Origin: Rubrobacter taiwanensis
GTDB lineage: Bacteria; Actinomycetota; Rubrobacteria; Rubrobacterales; Rubrobacteraceae
Length of the DNA: 64,000 nt
Assembly: GCF_004337705.1 (NCBI RefSeq)
Contig: NZ_SKBU01000016.1
Coordinates: forward strand, 1 to 64,000
Reading direction: 5' to 3'
A program made the position numbers and the translations under genes. Within the stretch, counting starts at the first letter, position 1. The number at the start of each line of letters is the position of its first letter. Shown here one piece after another: positions 39,222-45,975 of the stretch. The notes below the pieces were generated by a model. That model made no database searches. It was not told the origin of the DNA and saw nothing but the letters and a program-made list of their open reading frames with translations.

Positions 39222-39379
39222 ACGGGTACCGGGATATTCTACCGCGTTCTGAGCCGTCCGTTTTGGGACTAGACCATGGTCAGCAGGGCTTGATCCGCCC
39301 GGGTGCGCGAGCGGGACCCGGCGAGCAGGGTCTTACTCCGGTGACCGGGCGTGCAATACGGCGCCACCGGGGTTTCGTG

Positions 39380-39511
39380 AAGAGCCTTCAACTTAGTGTT
39401 CCCCCGGCCTTCTCCGGCTCCTTCTACCTCTGCGCCGCCCTCGTGGCCTCCGCCCTCCTCCTGGTCTACCCGGACCGCCGCAAGACGCCCCCCGGCAGCC
39501 TTGGTGTATAG
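39380..39511 (+). pseudogene. Possible C-terminal remnant of a membrane transporter
   Basis: In this gap of about 330 bp (39222-39548) a short frame ends with a convincing terminal membrane helix (G-S-F-Y-L-C-A-A-L-V-A-S-A-L-L-L-V-Y-P) and a basic tail, the usual end of an MFS permease. Nothing upstream continues it. It is weak evidence for a decayed transporter; the rest of the gap shows nothing but the tRNA promoter side. Confidence 0.3.
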
Positions 39512-39548
39512 TCGGCAGACACGCGGACGAGACGCGAGGAGGAGCGAT

Positions 39549-40895
39549 ATGGCGGACAGATACGACGCGGTGGTACTGGGGATGGGCCCCGGCGGGGAGG
39601 TTGCGGCGAGCCGCCTGATAAGCGGGGGCCTGAGGGTAGCGGTGGTGGAGCGGGAGCTCATCGGCGGGGAGTGCGCCTACTGGGCGTGCATCCCGTCGAA
39701 GACGCTGCTGAGGCCGCCGGAGGTCAGGAGCGAGGCGCAGCGGGCCTTCGGGACCGGGATTCCGGAGCTGGACCGGGGCGGCCTCTTCGACTACCGGGAC
39801 TGGATGATCCGGAACCTCGACGACTCGGCGCAGGTGGAGGGCTACGAGCAGCGGGGAGCCACGGTCATAAAGGGGGAGGGTAGGATCTCCGGCCCCGGCC
39901 GGGTCGAGGTGGGCGGGGAGATCCTGGAGGCGGAGCACATCGTCGTCGCCACCGGCTCGGCCCCGAACGTGCCTCCGGTGGAGGGCCTCGAAGGGGTGAC
40001 CGTGTGGACCAACCGGGAGGCCACCACCAGCCGCGAGGTGCCGGACAGAACGCTCATCATCGGCGGGGGGCCAAACGGGATAGAGGCGGCCCAGTGGCTC
40101 TCGCGCCTGGGCTCCCGGGTCACCGTGGTCCAGTCGGCGGACAGGCTCATAGACCGCGAGGACCCGGAGGTCGGGAGGCTCATAGAGGAGGCCCTGGAGG
40201 AGGAGGGCGTAACGGTCCTCACCGGCCGGCAGGCGGTGAGGGCGCGCAAAGAGGACGGGCGGACCGTGATAGAGCTGGACGACGGCTCGGAGGCGGAGAC
40301 CGACGTGGTACTGATCGCTGCCGGGCGCAGGCCCCGGACGCAGGGGCTTGGGCTGGAGACGGTCGGCGTGGAAGCGGAGGGCGGCGCCGTTCCCGTGGAC
40401 GAGCGCTGCCGGGCCGCCGACGGGGTGTGGGCCATCGGCGACGTGACGGGGGTGGCGCTCTTCACCCACGTGGCCAAGTACCAGGGCCGGGTCGCCGCCG
40501 ACAACATCCTCGGCAAAGAGCAGCGTGCCGACTACCGCGGCATCCCCCGGGTGGTCTTCTCCGACCCGGAGATCGCCGCCTGCGGCCTCACCGCAGAGCA
40601 GGCGAGAGAGCAGGGGATCGACGCCGCCGTCGCCACCGTAAAGCTCCCCGAGGTGCTCGCCAGACCCTGGACCTACGAGGAGAGCCCGCGGGGGCACCTG
40701 GGCCTGATCGCCGACCGGAAGCAGGGGGTGCTCGTCGGGGCGTGGGCCGTCGCCCCGCAGGCCGGGGAGTGGATCCACCAAGCCTCCCTGGCCATCCGGG
40801 CGGGAATCCCCATAGAGCGCCTGCTCGACACGGTGGCCCAGTTCCCTACCTACTCCGAAGGCTACCTGAACGCGCTGGAGGAGCTGGACCTCTAG
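39549..40895 (+). CDS. Pyridine nucleotide-disulfide oxidoreductase, dihydrolipoyl dehydrogenase-like
   Basis: 448 aa from ATG 39549 with GGAGGAG upstream. FAD-binding G-M-G-P-G-G near the N-terminus, redox-active disulfide C-x4-C in E-C-A-Y-W-A-C-I-P-S-K, NAD(P)-binding I-G-G-G-P-N-G-I-E-A and A-I-G-D-V-T-G. The C-terminal active-site base, normally in H-P-T, reads F-P-T-Y-S-E, so the proton relay of true lipoamide dehydrogenase is missing. It may be a ferredoxin/quinone or small-disulfide reductase rather than the E3 of the pdh operon. Stands alone upstream of the mercury operon. Confidence 0.85.
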   Translation: MADRYDAVVLGMGPGGEVAASRLISGGLRVAVVERELIGGECAYWACIPSKTLLRPPEVRSEAQRAFGTGIPELDRGGLFDYRDWMIRNLDDSAQVEGYEQRGATVIKGEGRISGPGRVEVGGEILEAEHIVVATGSAPNVPPVEGLEGVTVWTNREATTSREVPDRTLIIGGGPNGIEAAQWLSRLGSRVTVVQSADRLIDREDPEVGRLIEEALEEEGVTVLTGRQAVRARKEDGRTVIELDDGSEAETDVVLIAAGRRPRTQGLGLETVGVEAEGGAVPVDERCRAADGVWAIGDVTGVALFTHVAKYQGRVAADNILGKEQRADYRGIPRVVFSDPEIAACGLTAEQAREQGIDAAVATVKLPEVLARPWTYEESPRGHLGLIADRKQGVLVGAWAVAPQAGEWIHQASLAIRAGIPIERLLDTVAQFPTYSEGYLNALEELDL

Positions 40896-40995
40896 ACAGC
40901 GGCAAGAAAACGGGAAGAGTAGCCACCACCAAGGCGCTGCGCCGGCCGGGCGCAAACGCATCGGCCGGCGCTACCCACATCCCGCCTCCCAACCG

Positions 40996-41027
40996 TTGAC
41001 AAATTCTGATTGGCAAATATTATTTGC
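40996..41027 (+). promoter_or_regulatory. mer operon promoter with overlapping palindromic operator
   Basis: TTGACA (40996-41001), a 16-bp spacer and TATTAT (41018-41023) form a near-consensus promoter. A perfect palindrome GCAAATA-T-TATTTGC (41013-41027) covers the -10 box, just where a repressor would block RNA polymerase. The ArsR-type regulator at 42680 in the same operon is the obvious candidate to bind it, releasing on Hg(II). Confidence 0.8.
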
Positions 41028-41053
41028 ATAAACGAATGTATGGAGGTGCGGCT

Positions 41054-42664
41054 TTGGGTGGCGGGAGGATAAGGATACGGATCGGGGCCATGACGCGCCC
41101 CCGCTGCGAGGAGGCGGTGAGCCGGGCGCTGGAGGGTGCCGGGGCGCGCGGCGTCCGTGCGGACTTCCGGCGGGGCGAGGCCGTCTTTGAGGCACCGGAG
41201 GGCGTGGACGGGGAGGGGCTGAGGGAGGCCGCAGGCGTGGAGGGTTCTCTGGGGCGGACCGGCGGGGGAAGTGTGGACTACGACCTGGCGATCATCGGCT
41301 CGGGCAGCGCGGCGTTTGCGGCGGCGATCCGGGCCTCTGGAGAGGGGGCGCGGGTCGCCGTGATCGAGCGCGGGACGGTCGGGGGAACGTGCGTGAACGC
41401 GGGGTGCATCCCCTCGAAGAACCTGCTCGCGGCGGCGGAGGCATACCACCGGGCCGCGGGCCACCCCTTCCGGGGCATCGAGACGAAGGCCGGGGCAGTG
41501 GACTTTGGGGCGCTCGTCGGGATGAAGGCGGAGGTCGTCTTAAAGCTGCGCCGGGAGAAGTACGAGGAGCTCGCGGAGGAGTACGGGTTCGGGATAATCC
41601 GGGGGGAGGCCGCCTTCGTCTCGCCCGAGGCCATCGAGGCCGGGGGCAGGAGGATCACGGCGCAGAGGTTCCTGATCGCGACGGGGGCTGCGCCGTGGGT
41701 CCCGCCCGTAGCGGGGCTCGAGGAGGCGGGCTACCTCACCTCCACGAGCGCGATGGAGCTCAAGGAGCTGCCGGAGTCGCTCGTCGTCATCGGCGGCAAC
41801 TACATCGGGCTCGAGATGGGGCAGCTCTTCGCCGATCTGGGGAGCAAGGTAACCATCGTGGAGATGCTCGACCGGCTCGTTCCCGGCGAAGAGCCCGAGG
41901 TCTCGCGGTGGATCGAACGCATCCTGCGGGAGCAGGGCGTCGAGGTGATCACCTCCGCCCGGGTCGGCCGCGTTGAAGGAGGCGGGAAGAAGACCGTCGT
42001 GGCGGAGGCCGGCAGAAAAGAGCGCAGGATGGAGGCAGAGGAGGTGCTCGTCGCCACCGGCCGCCGCCCGGTCCTCGACGGGCTCGGCCTGGAGAAGGCC
42101 GGGATAGAGCGCGACGGGCGCGGCGCCCTGGTGCTGGACGAGACCCTCCGAACGACCAACCCGCGGGTCTTCGCGGCGGGGGATGTCACCGGGGCCCCGC
42201 AGTTCGTCTACGTCGCGGCCGCGCAGGGCACCCTCGCCGCCGAGAACGCCCTGCTTGGGGCCGGGCGCAAGGTGGACTACGAGGCGCTGCCGCGGGTGAC
42301 GTTCACCACGCCGAACATCGCCGCGGCGGGCCTGACCGACGCCCGGGCGCGCGAGCTGGGCTACCGCTGCGAGTGCCGGGTTGTGGGCCTGGAGAACGTC
42401 CCCCGGGCCATCGTCAACCTGGACACCCGCGGGATGGTCAAGATCGTCGCCGAGCAGGGGAGCGGGAGGGTCCTCGGGGTGCACGCCGTCGGGGACAGCG
42501 CCGGTGAGATCATCCTGGCCGGGGTGTACGCGGTGAAGTTCGGCCTCACCGTGCGGGATCTCGCCGAGACCTGGGCCCCGTACCTGACGATGTCCGAGGG
42601 GATAAGGCTCGCCGCCCAGGCCTTCGGGCGCGACGTCTCGAAGCTCTCCTGCTGTGCGGCGTGA
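41054..42664 (+). CDS. merA: Mercury(II) reductase
   Basis: 536 aa. The TTG 41054 start has GGAGG 7 nt upstream; the frame is open to within the operator but other starts lack a site. Residues ~1-70 form an NmerA-like HMA domain whose G-M-T-C-x-x-C is altered to A-M-T-R-P-R-C, leaving one cysteine. The catalytic core follows: I-I-G-S-G-S-A-A, active disulfide G-G-T-C-V-N-A-G-C-I-P-S-K, A-A-G-D-V-T, and the diagnostic C-terminal pair in L-S-C-C-A-A that hands Hg(II) to the inner site. NADPH-dependent reduction of Hg(II) to Hg(0). First gene of the mer operon. Confidence 0.95.
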   Translation: MGGGRIRIRIGAMTRPRCEEAVSRALEGAGARGVRADFRRGEAVFEAPEGVDGEGLREAAGVEGSLGRTGGGSVDYDLAIIGSGSAAFAAAIRASGEGARVAVIERGTVGGTCVNAGCIPSKNLLAAAEAYHRAAGHPFRGIETKAGAVDFGALVGMKAEVVLKLRREKYEELAEEYGFGIIRGEAAFVSPEAIEAGGRRITAQRFLIATGAAPWVPPVAGLEEAGYLTSTSAMELKELPESLVVIGGNYIGLEMGQLFADLGSKVTIVEMLDRLVPGEEPEVSRWIERILREQGVEVITSARVGRVEGGGKKTVVAEAGRKERRMEAEEVLVATGRRPVLDGLGLEKAGIERDGRGALVLDETLRTTNPRVFAAGDVTGAPQFVYVAAAQGTLAAENALLGAGRKVDYEALPRVTFTTPNIAAAGLTDARARELGYRCECRVVGLENVPRAIVNLDTRGMVKIVAEQGSGRVLGVHAVGDSAGEIILAGVYAVKFGLTVRDLAETWAPYLTMSEGIRLAAQAFGRDVSKLSCCAA

Positions 42665-42679
42665 GGGAAGGAGGCGCGG

Positions 42680-43057
42680 ATGCCGGAGAAGACGCGGGAG
42701 AAGGTGCCGCTCCGGGAAGTTAGGATCGGGAGGGACAGCCCGGACATGAAGGTAATAGCCAGGCTCTTCGACGGGTTCGCCGACCCCACCAGGATGTCCA
42801 TACTCGCGTACCTGGCGCGGCGGGGCGAGGCCGGGGTCTCCGAGATCGTCGAGGCCGTGGGCGCGACCCAGCCGCGGGTCTCGGTCCACCTGCGGTGTCT
42901 CGCCTGGTGCGGCTACGTCCGGGGGAGGCGCGAGGGCAGGCGGGCCTACTACGCGATAGCCGACGAGCGGGTGCTCAGCATGCTCCGGCTGGCGGAGGAG
43001 CTCCTGGCGGACAACCGGGAGCACGTCGAGGCCTGCGAGGTCACCGGCGAATGCTAG
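42680..43057 (+). CDS. ArsR/SmtB-family metal-sensing repressor (mer regulator)
   Basis: 125 aa winged helix protein: A-D-P-T-R-M-S-I-L-A-Y-L-A-R and recognition helix T-Q-P-R-V-S-V-H-L. Cysteines C-L-A-W-C in the following helix and two more near the C-terminus (H-V-E-A-C-E-V-T-G-E-C) match the CmtR/actinobacterial MerR-type sensor site for Hg, Cd or Pb. It lies 15 bp after merA. It should bind the palindrome at 41013-41027 and autoregulate the operon. Actinobacterial mer operons typically use such ArsR proteins in place of MerR. Confidence 0.92.
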   Translation: MPEKTREKVPLREVRIGRDSPDMKVIARLFDGFADPTRMSILAYLARRGEAGVSEIVEAVGATQPRVSVHLRCLAWCGYVRGRREGRRAYYAIADERVLSMLRLAEELLADNREHVEACEVTGEC

Positions 43058-43118
43058 AGCTCCGGACACCGCTTCCGGCCACAAGAGGCCGGAAGCGCCG
43101 GCGCGAGGGGGCAAGAAG

Positions 43119-43436
43119 TTGAGAAGGATCGCGGGTTATCTGCTGGTGGTGACGGCGCTGCTCGCCTGCCCCTGCCACCTGGCACTGCTGCTGCCGGTGG
43201 CTCTGGGCCTGTTCGGGGGCACGGCGGCCGCCGCGGCCCTCGGGGCGAACATCGGGTGGGTGCTTGCCGGGGCGACCGTCTACTTCGTCGGCGCGCTCGC
43301 TGGCGGGCTCTACCTGCTGAGCCGGCGGGCCAGGAGAGGCGTGCGCGCGACCGAAGAAACGCAGGACTGCTGCCCCCCGCCCTCCGACGACCGCAAGGCC
43401 GGGCGCAGGAAGCCCGTCGGAGGGAGGCGGCATTGA
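43119..43436 (+). CDS. MerE-like mercury transport membrane protein
   Basis: 105 aa, TTG start. Two membrane helices; the first carries L-A-C-P-C-H-L-A-L-L-L-P-V and then G-L-F-G-G-T-A, matching the MerE hallmark C-P-C-H-L followed by A-G-T-x-A-G. The C-terminal tail has a D-C-C-P-P-P cysteine pair that could pass Hg(II) to MerA. It imports Hg(II) or organomercury for reduction. No classical MerT or MerP is present, so this is probably the main uptake protein here. Confidence 0.82.
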   Translation: MRRIAGYLLVVTALLACPCHLALLLPVALGLFGGTAAAAALGANIGWVLAGATVYFVGALAGGLYLLSRRARRGVRATEETQDCCPPPSDDRKAGRRKPVGGRRH

Positions 43437-44005
43437 CTACGGCGAAGAAGAGAGCGGCCGCCGTGGCGGTCCTGCTCGCGGCCGCGCTCGTTGCGGGCGC
43501 CTGCGGCGGCTTCGGGTCCGGGAAAGGAGCATCCGGGGGTCGCGGGGAGACGGTACAGGCGACGACCGCCGCGACCGAGGGGACCGGCGGCGCGGTAGCC
43601 ACGGCCCCGAGCATCGAGACCCTCGCCGGCGAGAGATTCGACCTCTCGGACGAGCGGGGGAAGGTGGTCGCCCTCTACTTCATGGCCGGCTGGTGCGGAA
43701 GCTGCATCCCCGAGGCCCGGAGCTGGTCGGAGCTCTACCCGAGCTACAGGGATGAAGGGCTGGAGGTGCTCGTCGTCTCCGCCGACCCGAACGACAGCCC
43801 CCAGACCATCGAGCGGTTCCGGCGTGCCGGCGGGATAGGGGATCTCCCGTGGGCCATCGACAGGACGGGCAGGTTCACCCGGGCGCTCGGCGTGCGGGCG
43901 CTCGACACCACCATAATCCTGGACCGGCGGGGGCGCGTGGCCTACAGGGATGCGGTACCCACGCCCGAGAAAAAGCTCAGAGAGGAGCTGGAGGAGGTTC
44001 TGTGA
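43433..44005 (+). CDS. Thioredoxin-like (TlpA/ResA-type) lipoprotein
   Basis: 190 aa. The TTG start overlaps the merE-like stop (TTGA) with GGGAGG upstream. Signal peptide with lipobox V-A-G-A-C, a low-complexity linker, then a thioredoxin fold with W-C-G-S-C active site and the cis-Pro region near L-D-T-T-I-I-L-D. An extracytoplasmic membrane-anchored thiol protein, kept reduced by the CcdA encoded next. Within a mercury operon it may replace MerP as the outside Hg(II) carrier; this is inference from context. Confidence 0.85.
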   Translation: MTTAKKRAAAVAVLLAAALVAGACGGFGSGKGASGGRGETVQATTAATEGTGGAVATAPSIETLAGERFDLSDERGKVVALYFMAGWCGSCIPEARSWSELYPSYRDEGLEVLVVSADPNDSPQTIERFRRAGGIGDLPWAIDRTGRFTRALGVRALDTTIILDRRGRVAYRDAVPTPEKKLREELEEVL

Positions 44006-44763
44006 GCGAGATACAGCAGCTGGTGGCCCAGTGGATCTCCACCCTCTCCGGGATGCTGCCCTTCGGCGTCGCCTTCGGCGCCGGGATGGTCGCCGCCGTT
44101 AACCCCTGCGGCTTCGCCATGCTCCCGGCCTACCTCTCGCTCTACCTGGGCGCCGAGGAGGAGGGCTTTGGGAAGCGTCCGGTGGCCGCCCGCCTGCTGC
44201 GGGCGCTCCTCGTCGGCGTGACCGTCTCGCTGGGCTTCGTGCTCCTGTTCTCCGTGGTCGGGCTCGCCGTCTCCTCCGGCGGGGTGGCGCTGCTTTCGGC
44301 GATGCCGTGGGTGGGCGTCCTGATCGGGGTGGCGCTCGTAGTGCTCGGGGTCTGGATGCTCGCCGGACGCACCGTCCACGCGGGGGCCTTCGGGCGGCTT
44401 GGGGCGAGGATAGGCAACCCCGCCGACGTGAGCCTGAGGGGCTTCTTCCTCTTCGGGCTCGCCTACGGGGTCGGCTCCCTGAGCTGCACCCTGCCGGTCT
44501 TCCTGGTGGTGGTAGGCACCGGCCTCGCCTCGGGCGGCCTGCTCGCGGGCATCGGGCAGTTTCTCGCCTTCGGGCTCGGGATGGCCTCGGTGCTCGTTGC
44601 CCTCACCCTGGCGCTGGGACTCTTCAAGCAGGGCCTGGTGAAGCGGCTGCGGAGGGCGATGCCCTACGTGCGGCTCGCCTCCGCGGCCCTGCTCGTCGTG
44701 GCCGGCGTCTACGTGGTCCATTACTGGGTCTCCTCGCAGACCGGAGGCGCCCTGCCGGGTTAG
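44002..44763 (+). CDS. ccdA: CcdA/DsbD-type transmembrane thiol-electron transporter
   Basis: 253 aa with six membrane helices. GTG 44002 overlaps the upstream stop (GTGA). Both redox half-motifs are present: N-P-C-G-F-A-M-L-P in helix 1 and G-S-L-S-C-T-L-P-V-F in helix 4. It carries reducing equivalents from cytosolic thioredoxin to extracytoplasmic thiol proteins, presumably the lipoprotein encoded directly before it. Placement inside the mer operon links reductant export to mercury handling. Confidence 0.9.
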   Translation: MSEIQQLVAQWISTLSGMLPFGVAFGAGMVAAVNPCGFAMLPAYLSLYLGAEEEGFGKRPVAARLLRALLVGVTVSLGFVLLFSVVGLAVSSGGVALLSAMPWVGVLIGVALVVLGVWMLAGRTVHAGAFGRLGARIGNPADVSLRGFFLFGLAYGVGSLSCTLPVFLVVVGTGLASGGLLAGIGQFLAFGLGMASVLVALTLALGLFKQGLVKRLRRAMPYVRLASAALLVVAGVYVVHYWVSSQTGGALPG

Positions 44764-44807
44764 ACTTAACCCTGCTCTGCAAGAGGCGAGAAGAGAGGAG
44801 GCGGAGC

Positions 44808-45272
44808 GTGGCCGGGATGCCGCAGGAAGGGGAGCGCTTCCCCGAGCTCTGGTTCGTGACCGAGGAGGGTGAGAGGGTCTCCACCGGGGACCTTCTCGGG
44901 CAGACGACCGTCCTCTACTTCTATCCCAAGGACCAGACCCCGGGCTGTACCAAAGAGGCCTGCGCCTTCAGGGACCGGATGCCCGACTACGAGCGAGCAG
45001 GGATAAAGGTCTACGGGGTGTCGCTAGATCCCCCCGAATCCCACCGGCGCTTCCGGGAGCGGAACGGGCTCAACTTCCCCCTGCTCACCGACGAGGACGG
45101 TCAGGCCGCAAAAAGCCTCGGCATCCTCTCCGAGAAGGGCTACGCCCGGCGGGTCACCTTCCTGCTAGACCCGGAGGGGACCGTGGTCCGGGTCTACCCC
45201 GAGGTCTCCCCCGAGACCCACGCCGGAGAGGTGCTCGCCGCCGCTAGTAGCGCCGGCCCCTCTGCCGGCTGA
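44808..45272 (+). CDS. bcp: Peroxiredoxin Q / bacterioferritin comigratory protein
   Basis: 154 aa from GTG 44808 with GGAGG six bases upstream. The PrxQ motif T-P-G-C-T-K-E-A-C has the peroxidatic Cys and, five residues later, the resolving Cys. Thiol-dependent reduction of H2O2 and organic peroxides. It follows ccdA by 45 bp on the same strand and may be the last gene of the mer operon. Its 3' end overlaps the convergent PIN-domain gene by 79 bp. Confidence 0.92.
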   Translation: MAGMPQEGERFPELWFVTEEGERVSTGDLLGQTTVLYFYPKDQTPGCTKEACAFRDRMPDYERAGIKVYGVSLDPPESHRRFRERNGLNFPLLTDEDGQAAKSLGILSEKGYARRVTFLLDPEGTVVRVYPEVSPETHAGEVLAAASSAGPSAG

Positions 45273-45718
45273 TATCGAAGCGGGCGGAGGAGGAGACGGC
45301 CATCACCCCGCCCCGCGCCGCACCGGGTCATCAGCGAGAGCACGACGAGGATCGCGGGTTCACCCTCCCTCCGGCCGTCCTCGGCGAAGGGCGCAGCCTC
45401 CACCACGAGCGCGTCCCAGAAGGAGAGGGACATGCTCCTGCTGCGCTCGATGGCGGCGAGGATCATAGCCCCGTCCACACGCACCAGCGGCAACAGCAAG
45501 AAGTCTCTCACTCTCGCGGCGGCCCTCTCCTGAGAGAGCGGCCTGGCTAGCTTGCGGGTCGCATTGACGTAGAACTCCTGCAGCACCTGGGTGCTCAGGA
45601 CCACCCGGTTCTCCTCGACGGCCCTCTCAAACGCCTCGATGGCCCCGGCCTTCTTCTGCGGCTCGTCATCATCGTACATGTAGAGCAGGACGTTGGTGTC
45701 GAAGAAGGAGCGGCTCAC
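45194..45718 (-). CDS. PIN-domain toxin (VapC-like), atypical C-terminus
   Basis: 174 aa from GTG 45718, which overlaps the antitoxin stop (GTGA). PIN RNase residues: S-F-F-D-T-N-V-L-L-Y, V-L-Q-E-F-Y, S-F-W-D-A-L and a possible last acid in A-E-D-G. After that point the family's usual short end (S-E-D-x-x-x-G...N-P-F) is replaced by an unrelated tail of about 50 residues that runs antisense through the end of bcp. A frameshift or deletion probably altered the 3' end; activity is uncertain. Predicted target is RNA. Confidence 0.8.
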   Translation of the reverse strand: MSRSFFDTNVLLYMYDDDEPQKKAGAIEAFERAVEENRVVLSTQVLQEFYVNATRKLARPLSQERAAARVRDFLLLPLVRVDGAMILAAIERSRSMSLSFWDALVVEAAPFAEDGRREGEPAILVVLSLMTRCGAGRGDGRLLLRPLRYQPAEGPALLAAASTSPAWVSGETSG

Positions 45719-45975
45719 TTCTTGGGATACCGTCCGAGCCTCTCCTCGTAGGCGTCCTCCCGCTTCCACTTGCGTCCGCCGGGACCCGAGCCGGCGCCTC
45801 CCCGGCGCGCGTCCTCGATGATCCTGCGCGCCGCCTCTCTCCGCTCCCGCCTCTGCCCGGCGTACTCCTCGAGGTACTCCCGCAAGACCGCGTTGACCGA
45901 GGTGTCCTCCTCGAGCGCCCGCATCCTCGCCCGCTTCAACGTATCCTCGTCCACCGTGATCGTCAGGTTCGCCAT
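45715..45975 (-). CDS. Ribbon-helix-helix antitoxin (VapB-like)
   Basis: 86 aa. The N-terminal beta strand N-L-T-I-T-V-D-E-D-T-L and helices A-R-M-R-A-L-E-E-D-T-S-V-N-A-V-L-R-E-Y-L form an RHH DNA-binding fold; the C-terminus (K-W-K-R-E-D-A-Y-E-E-R) is the usual toxin-wrapping tail. Stop-start overlap with the PIN toxin supports a toxin-antitoxin operon that autoregulates. Confidence 0.88.
   Translation of the reverse strand: MANLTITVDEDTLKRARMRALEEDTSVNAVLREYLEEYAGQRRERREAARRIIEDARRGGAGSGPGGRKWKREDAYEERLGRYPKK

Follow-up and report, generated by a model that had tools for sequence, protein, structure and literature searches.

How does Hg(II) enter a cell whose mer operon encodes neither MerT nor MerP, and why would such an operon carry the genes of a thiol redox pair? 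The question is raised by a locus of Rubrobacter taiwanensis (genome G000, 3.04 Mb) that lies within the 64,000-nucleotide stretch analyzed here, hereafter the window. The initial annotation, made from the letters of this stretch, described a mercury operon continuing into genes for a MerE-like protein, a WCGSC thioredoxin-fold lipoprotein, CcdA and PrxQ, and proposed that the lipoprotein captures Hg(II) outside the cell and hands it to the MerE-like channel. Coordinates and motifs bear out this gene set (Table 1), and a profile search for the MerT and MerP families gave no match among the proteins of the window operon.

Table 1 Features of the mer locus in the window, with positions counted from the first letter of the window.
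Feature	Position	Strand	Evidence
Flavoprotein disulfide oxidoreductase, FAD-dependent pyridine nucleotide type, GGECAYWACIPSK active site	39549..40895	+	Profile score, position in relatives
Promoter, sigma-70-like, TTGACA-16-TATTAT, 5' of merA	40996..41023	+	11/12 positions
Palindrome GCAAATA-T-TATTTGC covering the -10 box, candidate ArsR operator	41013..41027		Putative role, from sequence
merA, mercuric reductase, 536 aa from TTG	41054..42664	+	TIGR02053 590 bits
ArsR/SmtB-type metalloregulator	42680..43057	+	NF033788 83 bits, cut-off 55
Inverted repeat, 11 bp perfect, 6-base loop, between arsR and merE	43070..43097		
MerE-like two-helix membrane protein, CPCH in helix 1, DCC tail	43119..43436	+	
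TlpA/ResA-like lipoprotein, WCGSC active site	43433..44005	+	PF08534 68 bits, PF00578 62 bits
CcdA, six hydrophobic segments, Cys36 and Cys162	44002..44763	+	
PrxQ/Bcp-type peroxiredoxin	44808..45272	+	PF00578 126 bits

Anatomy of the mer operon

A promoter scan of positions 39300-45900 returned the sigma-70-like site 5' of merA as the sole one, where 0.1 would be expected, and found no second promoter-like site before merE, tlpA or prxQ. The core AATAT/TAT of the palindrome that covers its -10 box is kept in all seven aligned sequences (the window and six relatives), G014 being the most divergent. The merE/tlpA and tlpA/ccdA junctions overlap by 4 bases each, whereas a gap of 44 bases separates ccdA from prxQ, so that the overlapping starts of the initial annotation hold for the first two junctions and not for the last; the merE-like gene, tlpA, ccdA and prxQ each have a Shine-Dalgarno-like stretch before them and one stop. 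The inverted repeat downstream of arsR is not followed by a T-tract, and in several relatives arsR and merE almost abut, leaving no space for it. With a single promoter-like site 5' of merA and none further down, the anatomy favors merA through prxQ as one putative ArsR-controlled transcription unit, in keeping with the single mer unit proposed at the outset, and regulation of the operon is presumably Hg-dependent. Just 3' of prxQ, on the opposite strand at 45194-45975, VapC-like PIN-domain and ribbon-helix-helix proteins form a probable toxin-antitoxin pair.

The identity of MerA is certain, its score on the curated mercuric reductase profile exceeding the cut-off of 454 bits, and the C-terminal CCAA and GGTCVNAGC are present. 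Its start is TTG in the window and ATG at that place in most relatives. The N-terminal HMA domain (41054-41300) is degenerate, GMTCxxC having been lost and GAMTRPRC standing where relatives have GGMTCSHC; this domain is optional, and many MerA proteins occur without it. The flavoprotein upstream was considered as a MerA and ruled out, since it reaches just 345 bits on TIGR02053 against the same cut-off. It occupies the same position beside mer in relatives from the host family and is 57-58% identical to oxidoreductases adjoining mer on R. ruber and R. qingshengii plasmids, and it is possibly an unrecognized mer accessory. A merB match stands after merA in 7/7 relatives and is absent from the window operon; the merB profile also recovers the annotated MerB of three plasmids, and a merB search of the whole window genome, run without a positive control, came back empty.

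The MerE-like protein scores below both curated cut-offs (PF05052, 19.3 vs 22.8 bits; NF010310, 29.7 vs 80 bits), and PF05052 matches all six MerE-like members of the family (best E 2e-6). It has two hydrophobic segments and cysteines at positions 17, 19, 84 and 85, of which the CPCH pair lies in the first segment and the DCC pair in the tail, and CPCHL together with one tail cysteine is invariant in the six family proteins. The MerE call is thus right in predicted architecture, though under the curated cut-offs. The lipoprotein combines the thioredoxin fold, CXXC and membrane anchor of TlpA/ResA proteins: it carries one N-terminal hydrophobic segment with a lipobox-type Cys24, its CXXC lies at residues 88-91, both of its thioredoxin-fold profiles are over cut-off, and its best solved relative is ResA (4nmu, E 5e-15). 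CcdA likewise has the six helices and the conserved cysteine per half that mark this protein; its cysteines are exactly two, in NPCGF and SLSCTLP, and are invariant in 15/15 family members. On PF02683 (DsbD_TM) the window CcdA reaches 17 bits against a cut-off of 27.1, while 14 of the 15 members match at E<=0.01, and there is a profile match to the solved CcdA 5vkv (E 0.0045). A DsbD_TM search of the window genome at E 0.001 gave no match, because of profile divergence and not CcdA absence.

Conservation and a selenocysteine contrast in the host family

The search covered 60 genomes, namely that of the window, 35 others from its family and a further 24 from its phylum; MerA exceeded the cut-off in nine, eight of them among the 36 of the host family. 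The gene order is complete in six of these eight, the other two being cut by contig ends: oxidoreductase-merA-(merB)-arsR-merE-tlpA-ccdA is found in the window, G019, G008, G001 and G013, G010 shows it from within merA onward, G022 has it divided over two contig ends, and the contig of G014 stops in arsR. A prxQ gene follows ccdA in three of the six complete operons (window, G019 and G008). Because the order is conserved across relatives and also across phyla, as described below, the arrangement in the window is more than chance. G019 has an additional 164-aa ORF between arsR and merE (L061:10998-11492), with a signal-like start and an HMA-like motif, GFGCASC, by which it is possibly MerP-like; its MerA is just 59% identical to that of the window, yet the downstream genes are close. 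On a short contig of the draft genome G006 (L069), merB-arsR-ccdA occur without tlpA or merA.

How does the pair look where mer is lacking? Twelve mer-less family genomes have a CcdA of at least 44% identity, and in the eight loci drawn from them (L070-L077) the TlpA lipoprotein gene has an in-frame TGA at the first CXXC cysteine in every case, giving W-TGA-xxC or Y-TGA-xxC. The mer-linked lipoproteins (window, L061-L065) have cysteine at this position. The window genome encodes a tRNA-Sec and selA, both over cut-off and ~1.8 kb apart on contig C49, and both are also found in most of the family. Folding placed a hairpin shortly 3' of the TGA in 6/8 loci, the two Tyr-TGA forms folding otherwise, and it was not seen in five cysteine forms; Rfam found no family in the eight loci, so that the SECIS reading comes from folding alone. 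Several of these TGA-containing genes stand after a lipoprotein gene that resembles DUF3179 by eye. The lipoprotein of the mer-less relatives is therefore probably a selenoprotein family, and the contrast supports a redox enzyme and hints at selenium avoidance beside mercury; because the mer-linked copies fall into one or two related groups, a single event may underlie the cysteine/TGA contrast. According to the initial annotation, wide presence of the pair away from mer in relatives, with no mer effect, would speak against its reading, and this objection holds in part: the pair does stand away from mer at the eight loci, but the lipoprotein there is apparently a selenoprotein.

Recurrence of the tlpA-ccdA pair beside mer

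A scan for MerA covered at least 80 loci from many phyla, and 4 of the 80 listed matches (L089, L095, L096 and L132) had both a tlpA and a ccdA profile hit at most 2.6 kb from merA, many of the listed loci being truncated; the L132 pair lies on the opposite strand, and the L095 ccdA is open across only part of the model. In L096, an Anaerolineaceae MAG, the order is merR-merA-tlpA-ccdA-merE-merB, with merR assigned by eye and merB by profile. Among 400 Chloroflexota genomes sampled, 75 have MerA over cut-off and 33 of these have a CcdA of the window type, which lies <=5 kb from merA in 15 genomes where random placement predicts 0.13 (Poisson P ~3e-26, under a simple model with genomes taken as independent). 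Of the 15 linked loci, 14 also have a tlpA match and 9 have merE, and one (G432, L197) reads exactly merA-arsR-merE-tlpA-ccdA. The remaining 60 merA-bearing genomes have no window-type ccdA within 5 kb, though a more divergent ccdA would escape this count, and the Streptomyces mer loci L085 and L087 are without ccdA; the TlpA-CcdA pair is thus not essential to mer.

A plasmid search with thresholds of E 1e-10 for CcdA and 0.01 for MerE returned nothing, and one with E 1 for CcdA and 0.001 for TlpA recovered pI258 and Rhodococcus records. The annotation of S. aureus pI258 (NC_013319.1) reads merR-TlpA-CcdA-merT-merA-merB and that of S. equorum plas2 merR-hypothetical-TlpA-CcdA-merA; TlpA and CcdA adjoin merA on the R. 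ruber C1 and R. qingshengii pCP2 plasmids, and in P. urinalis ArsR, a CPCH transporter and CcdA precede merA. In four of ten plasmid regions (Streptomycetaceae NBC_01309, P. chlorophenolicus, Streptomyces CdTB01 and F2) the pair stands in a stretch that has no annotated mer gene. In the available part of a 2025 review, proteins of Gordonia, Rhodococcus and Mycobacteroides with TrxA and CcdA domains appear under the name 'mercury transporter' or similar (PMC12195606), and the mer gene lists in the available parts of surveys from 2012 and 2021 are without the TlpA-CcdA pair (PMC3466566, PMC8261052). No report of an Hg role for the pI258 TlpA and CcdA was found in the literature searched, which mostly excluded subscription papers. 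The arrangement is already known in kind and is present in the classic staphylococcal mer plasmid; given also the S. equorum and Rhodococcus plasmids and the 15/75 Chloroflexota, the description of an unusual uptake design is not supported. What is supported is the tie of an extracytoplasmic dithiol lipoprotein and CcdA to mer, which is conserved in the family, and the survey of mer operons that the initial annotation had suggested finds the pair recurring across phyla.

A tree of 64 CcdAs shows the mer-linked copies scattered and not gathered in one clade. The mer-linkage label changes 13 times, at least 10 of these changes being forced by starred (well-supported) branches, against 21.8 for shuffled labels, and the window CcdA falls within a clade of solely its family's CcdAs, linked and unlinked. 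The tree left out L208 and L231 (<180 residues) and the duplicate L203; L067 and L221 were given the mer-linked label by hand, since their contigs end between genes, and L069 was labelled unlinked despite an adjoining MerB-like ORF and arsR. Linked labels are doubtful for L091 (partly via a second MerA-like frame), L132 (opposite strand) and L210, a distant CcdA branch that is counted among the 15 Chloroflexota loci, and the labels MerT-like (L196) and DUF3179-like were assigned by eye. As read from this tree, TlpA-CcdA has been placed beside mer more than once or has often been lost, and the linkage recurs either way; that it was gained or lost many times argues for a shared function.

Role of the pair and comparison with known systems

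We hypothesize, with about even confidence, that this is a chromosomal mer operon in which CcdA-fed TlpA keeps the thiols of the external Hg(II) path reduced, Hg(II) enters through MerE and MerA reduces it inside the cell. In this scheme cytoplasmic thioredoxin would supply electrons that CcdA passes through the membrane to TlpA. The lipoprotein would then hold the cysteines of MerE (its CPC pair and those of its tail), and possibly the WCGSC of the lipoprotein itself, in the reduced state, so that they could take up Hg(II) although the compartment is oxidizing. Where MerP is lacking, Hg(II) may moreover meet reduced TlpA as its first ligand. An alternative that we consider unlikely, and that follows the initial annotation, is that TlpA is chiefly an Hg(II) binder, a MerP substitute that strips Hg(II) and passes it to MerE, with CcdA merely reducing it. 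The missing MerP-type match in the window operon and an exposed dithiol on a lipoprotein agree with this, and the HMA-like ORF of G019 indicates that external ligands vary; however, G019 retains tlpA-ccdA alongside that ORF, the TlpA fold and motif, with ResA as best match, are those of a redox enzyme, and the probable selenocysteine at the attacking position in mer-less relatives points to catalysis. We give a similarly low probability to envelope repair, by which the pair and PrxQ would reverse Hg or oxidant damage to extracytoplasmic thiol proteins with no part in uptake. The position of prxQ after ccdA in the window, G019 and G008 and the retention of the pair in mer-less relatives would fit such a role, but prxQ is absent from the other half of the six complete family operons, and in the window tlpA tightly overlaps the transporter gene.

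Could the pair have nothing to do with mercury? CcdA and ResA/TlpA are best known from cytochrome c maturation, and their genes might merely adjoin mer. ResB and PF01578 (CcsA/CcmF type) were found in none of the 23 family genomes searched, the window genome included, while the named control genomes matched; this absence makes a role in cytochrome c maturation very improbable, and recurrent linkage to mer likewise speaks against it. It is equally hard to credit that a general extracytoplasmic thiol system was caught by the operon and has no Hg-specific role. No other close CcdA is encoded in the window genome, where besides PrxQ only one other, weak, TlpA match occurs, so that the copy in mer may serve the cell at large, but chance capture sits poorly with the excess of Chloroflexota linkages over random expectation and with the label changes forced on the tree.

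The reading in which TlpA-CcdA reduces the external Hg(II) path can be widened, since the pair accompanies differing carriers: MerE in the window, MerT in pI258 and small CC proteins in Rhodococcus. Its occurrence with differing transporter types suggests that the shared need is general to Hg entry. A tentative and somewhat doubtful extension is that, in many mer operons of Gram-positive bacteria, Chloroflexota and actinobacteria, Hg uptake is electron-driven via CcdA-TlpA, the pair recharging the external dithiols of unrelated small carriers, and that the lipoprotein native to the family is a selenoprotein in which cysteine replaced selenocysteine next to mercury because Hg(II) would trap a selenol. 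If true, electron-driven Hg(II) uptake would be a general step absent from current mer models. With linkage recurring in several phyla, a testable claim can be made about two reading frames of pI258 that have been neglected, namely that capture of Hg(II) outside the cell depends on continual reduction; if so, the mer model would gain a redox step. New here are the evidence that the linkage recurs, the contrast in selenocysteine, and the flavoprotein that adjoins mer both in this family and in Rhodococcus.

How does the locus compare with known systems? The ResA/CcdA system of Bacillus combines a membrane-anchored thioredoxin-fold CXXC protein with CcdA in cytochrome c maturation, whereas the window pair lies in a mer operon and lacks ResB/CcsA partners in the family. 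The Tn21 MerE, whose cysteine pair and adjacent His are needed for Hg(II) uptake according to the available part of the study (PMC5715351), likewise has two helices with the cysteine pair and His in the first; the window protein differs in its longer tail with extra cysteines and its scores under the curated MerE cut-offs. The Rhodococcus plasmids share a small CC protein, TlpA, CcdA, merA and the GGECAYWACIPSK flavoprotein, as well as ArsR in R. ruber, but their genes are divergent or reordered, merB is present and another small membrane protein takes the place of MerE. In pI258 the operon is headed by MerR and not ArsR, MerT replaces MerE, merB is present, tlpA-ccdA stand ahead of merT-merA and no prxQ is annotated in the stretch, yet tlpA and ccdA adjoin within the mer operon with the same 4-base overlap, next to merA, and encode a WCPSC lipoprotein and CcdA that accompany a small cysteine-pair transporter with a DCC tail.
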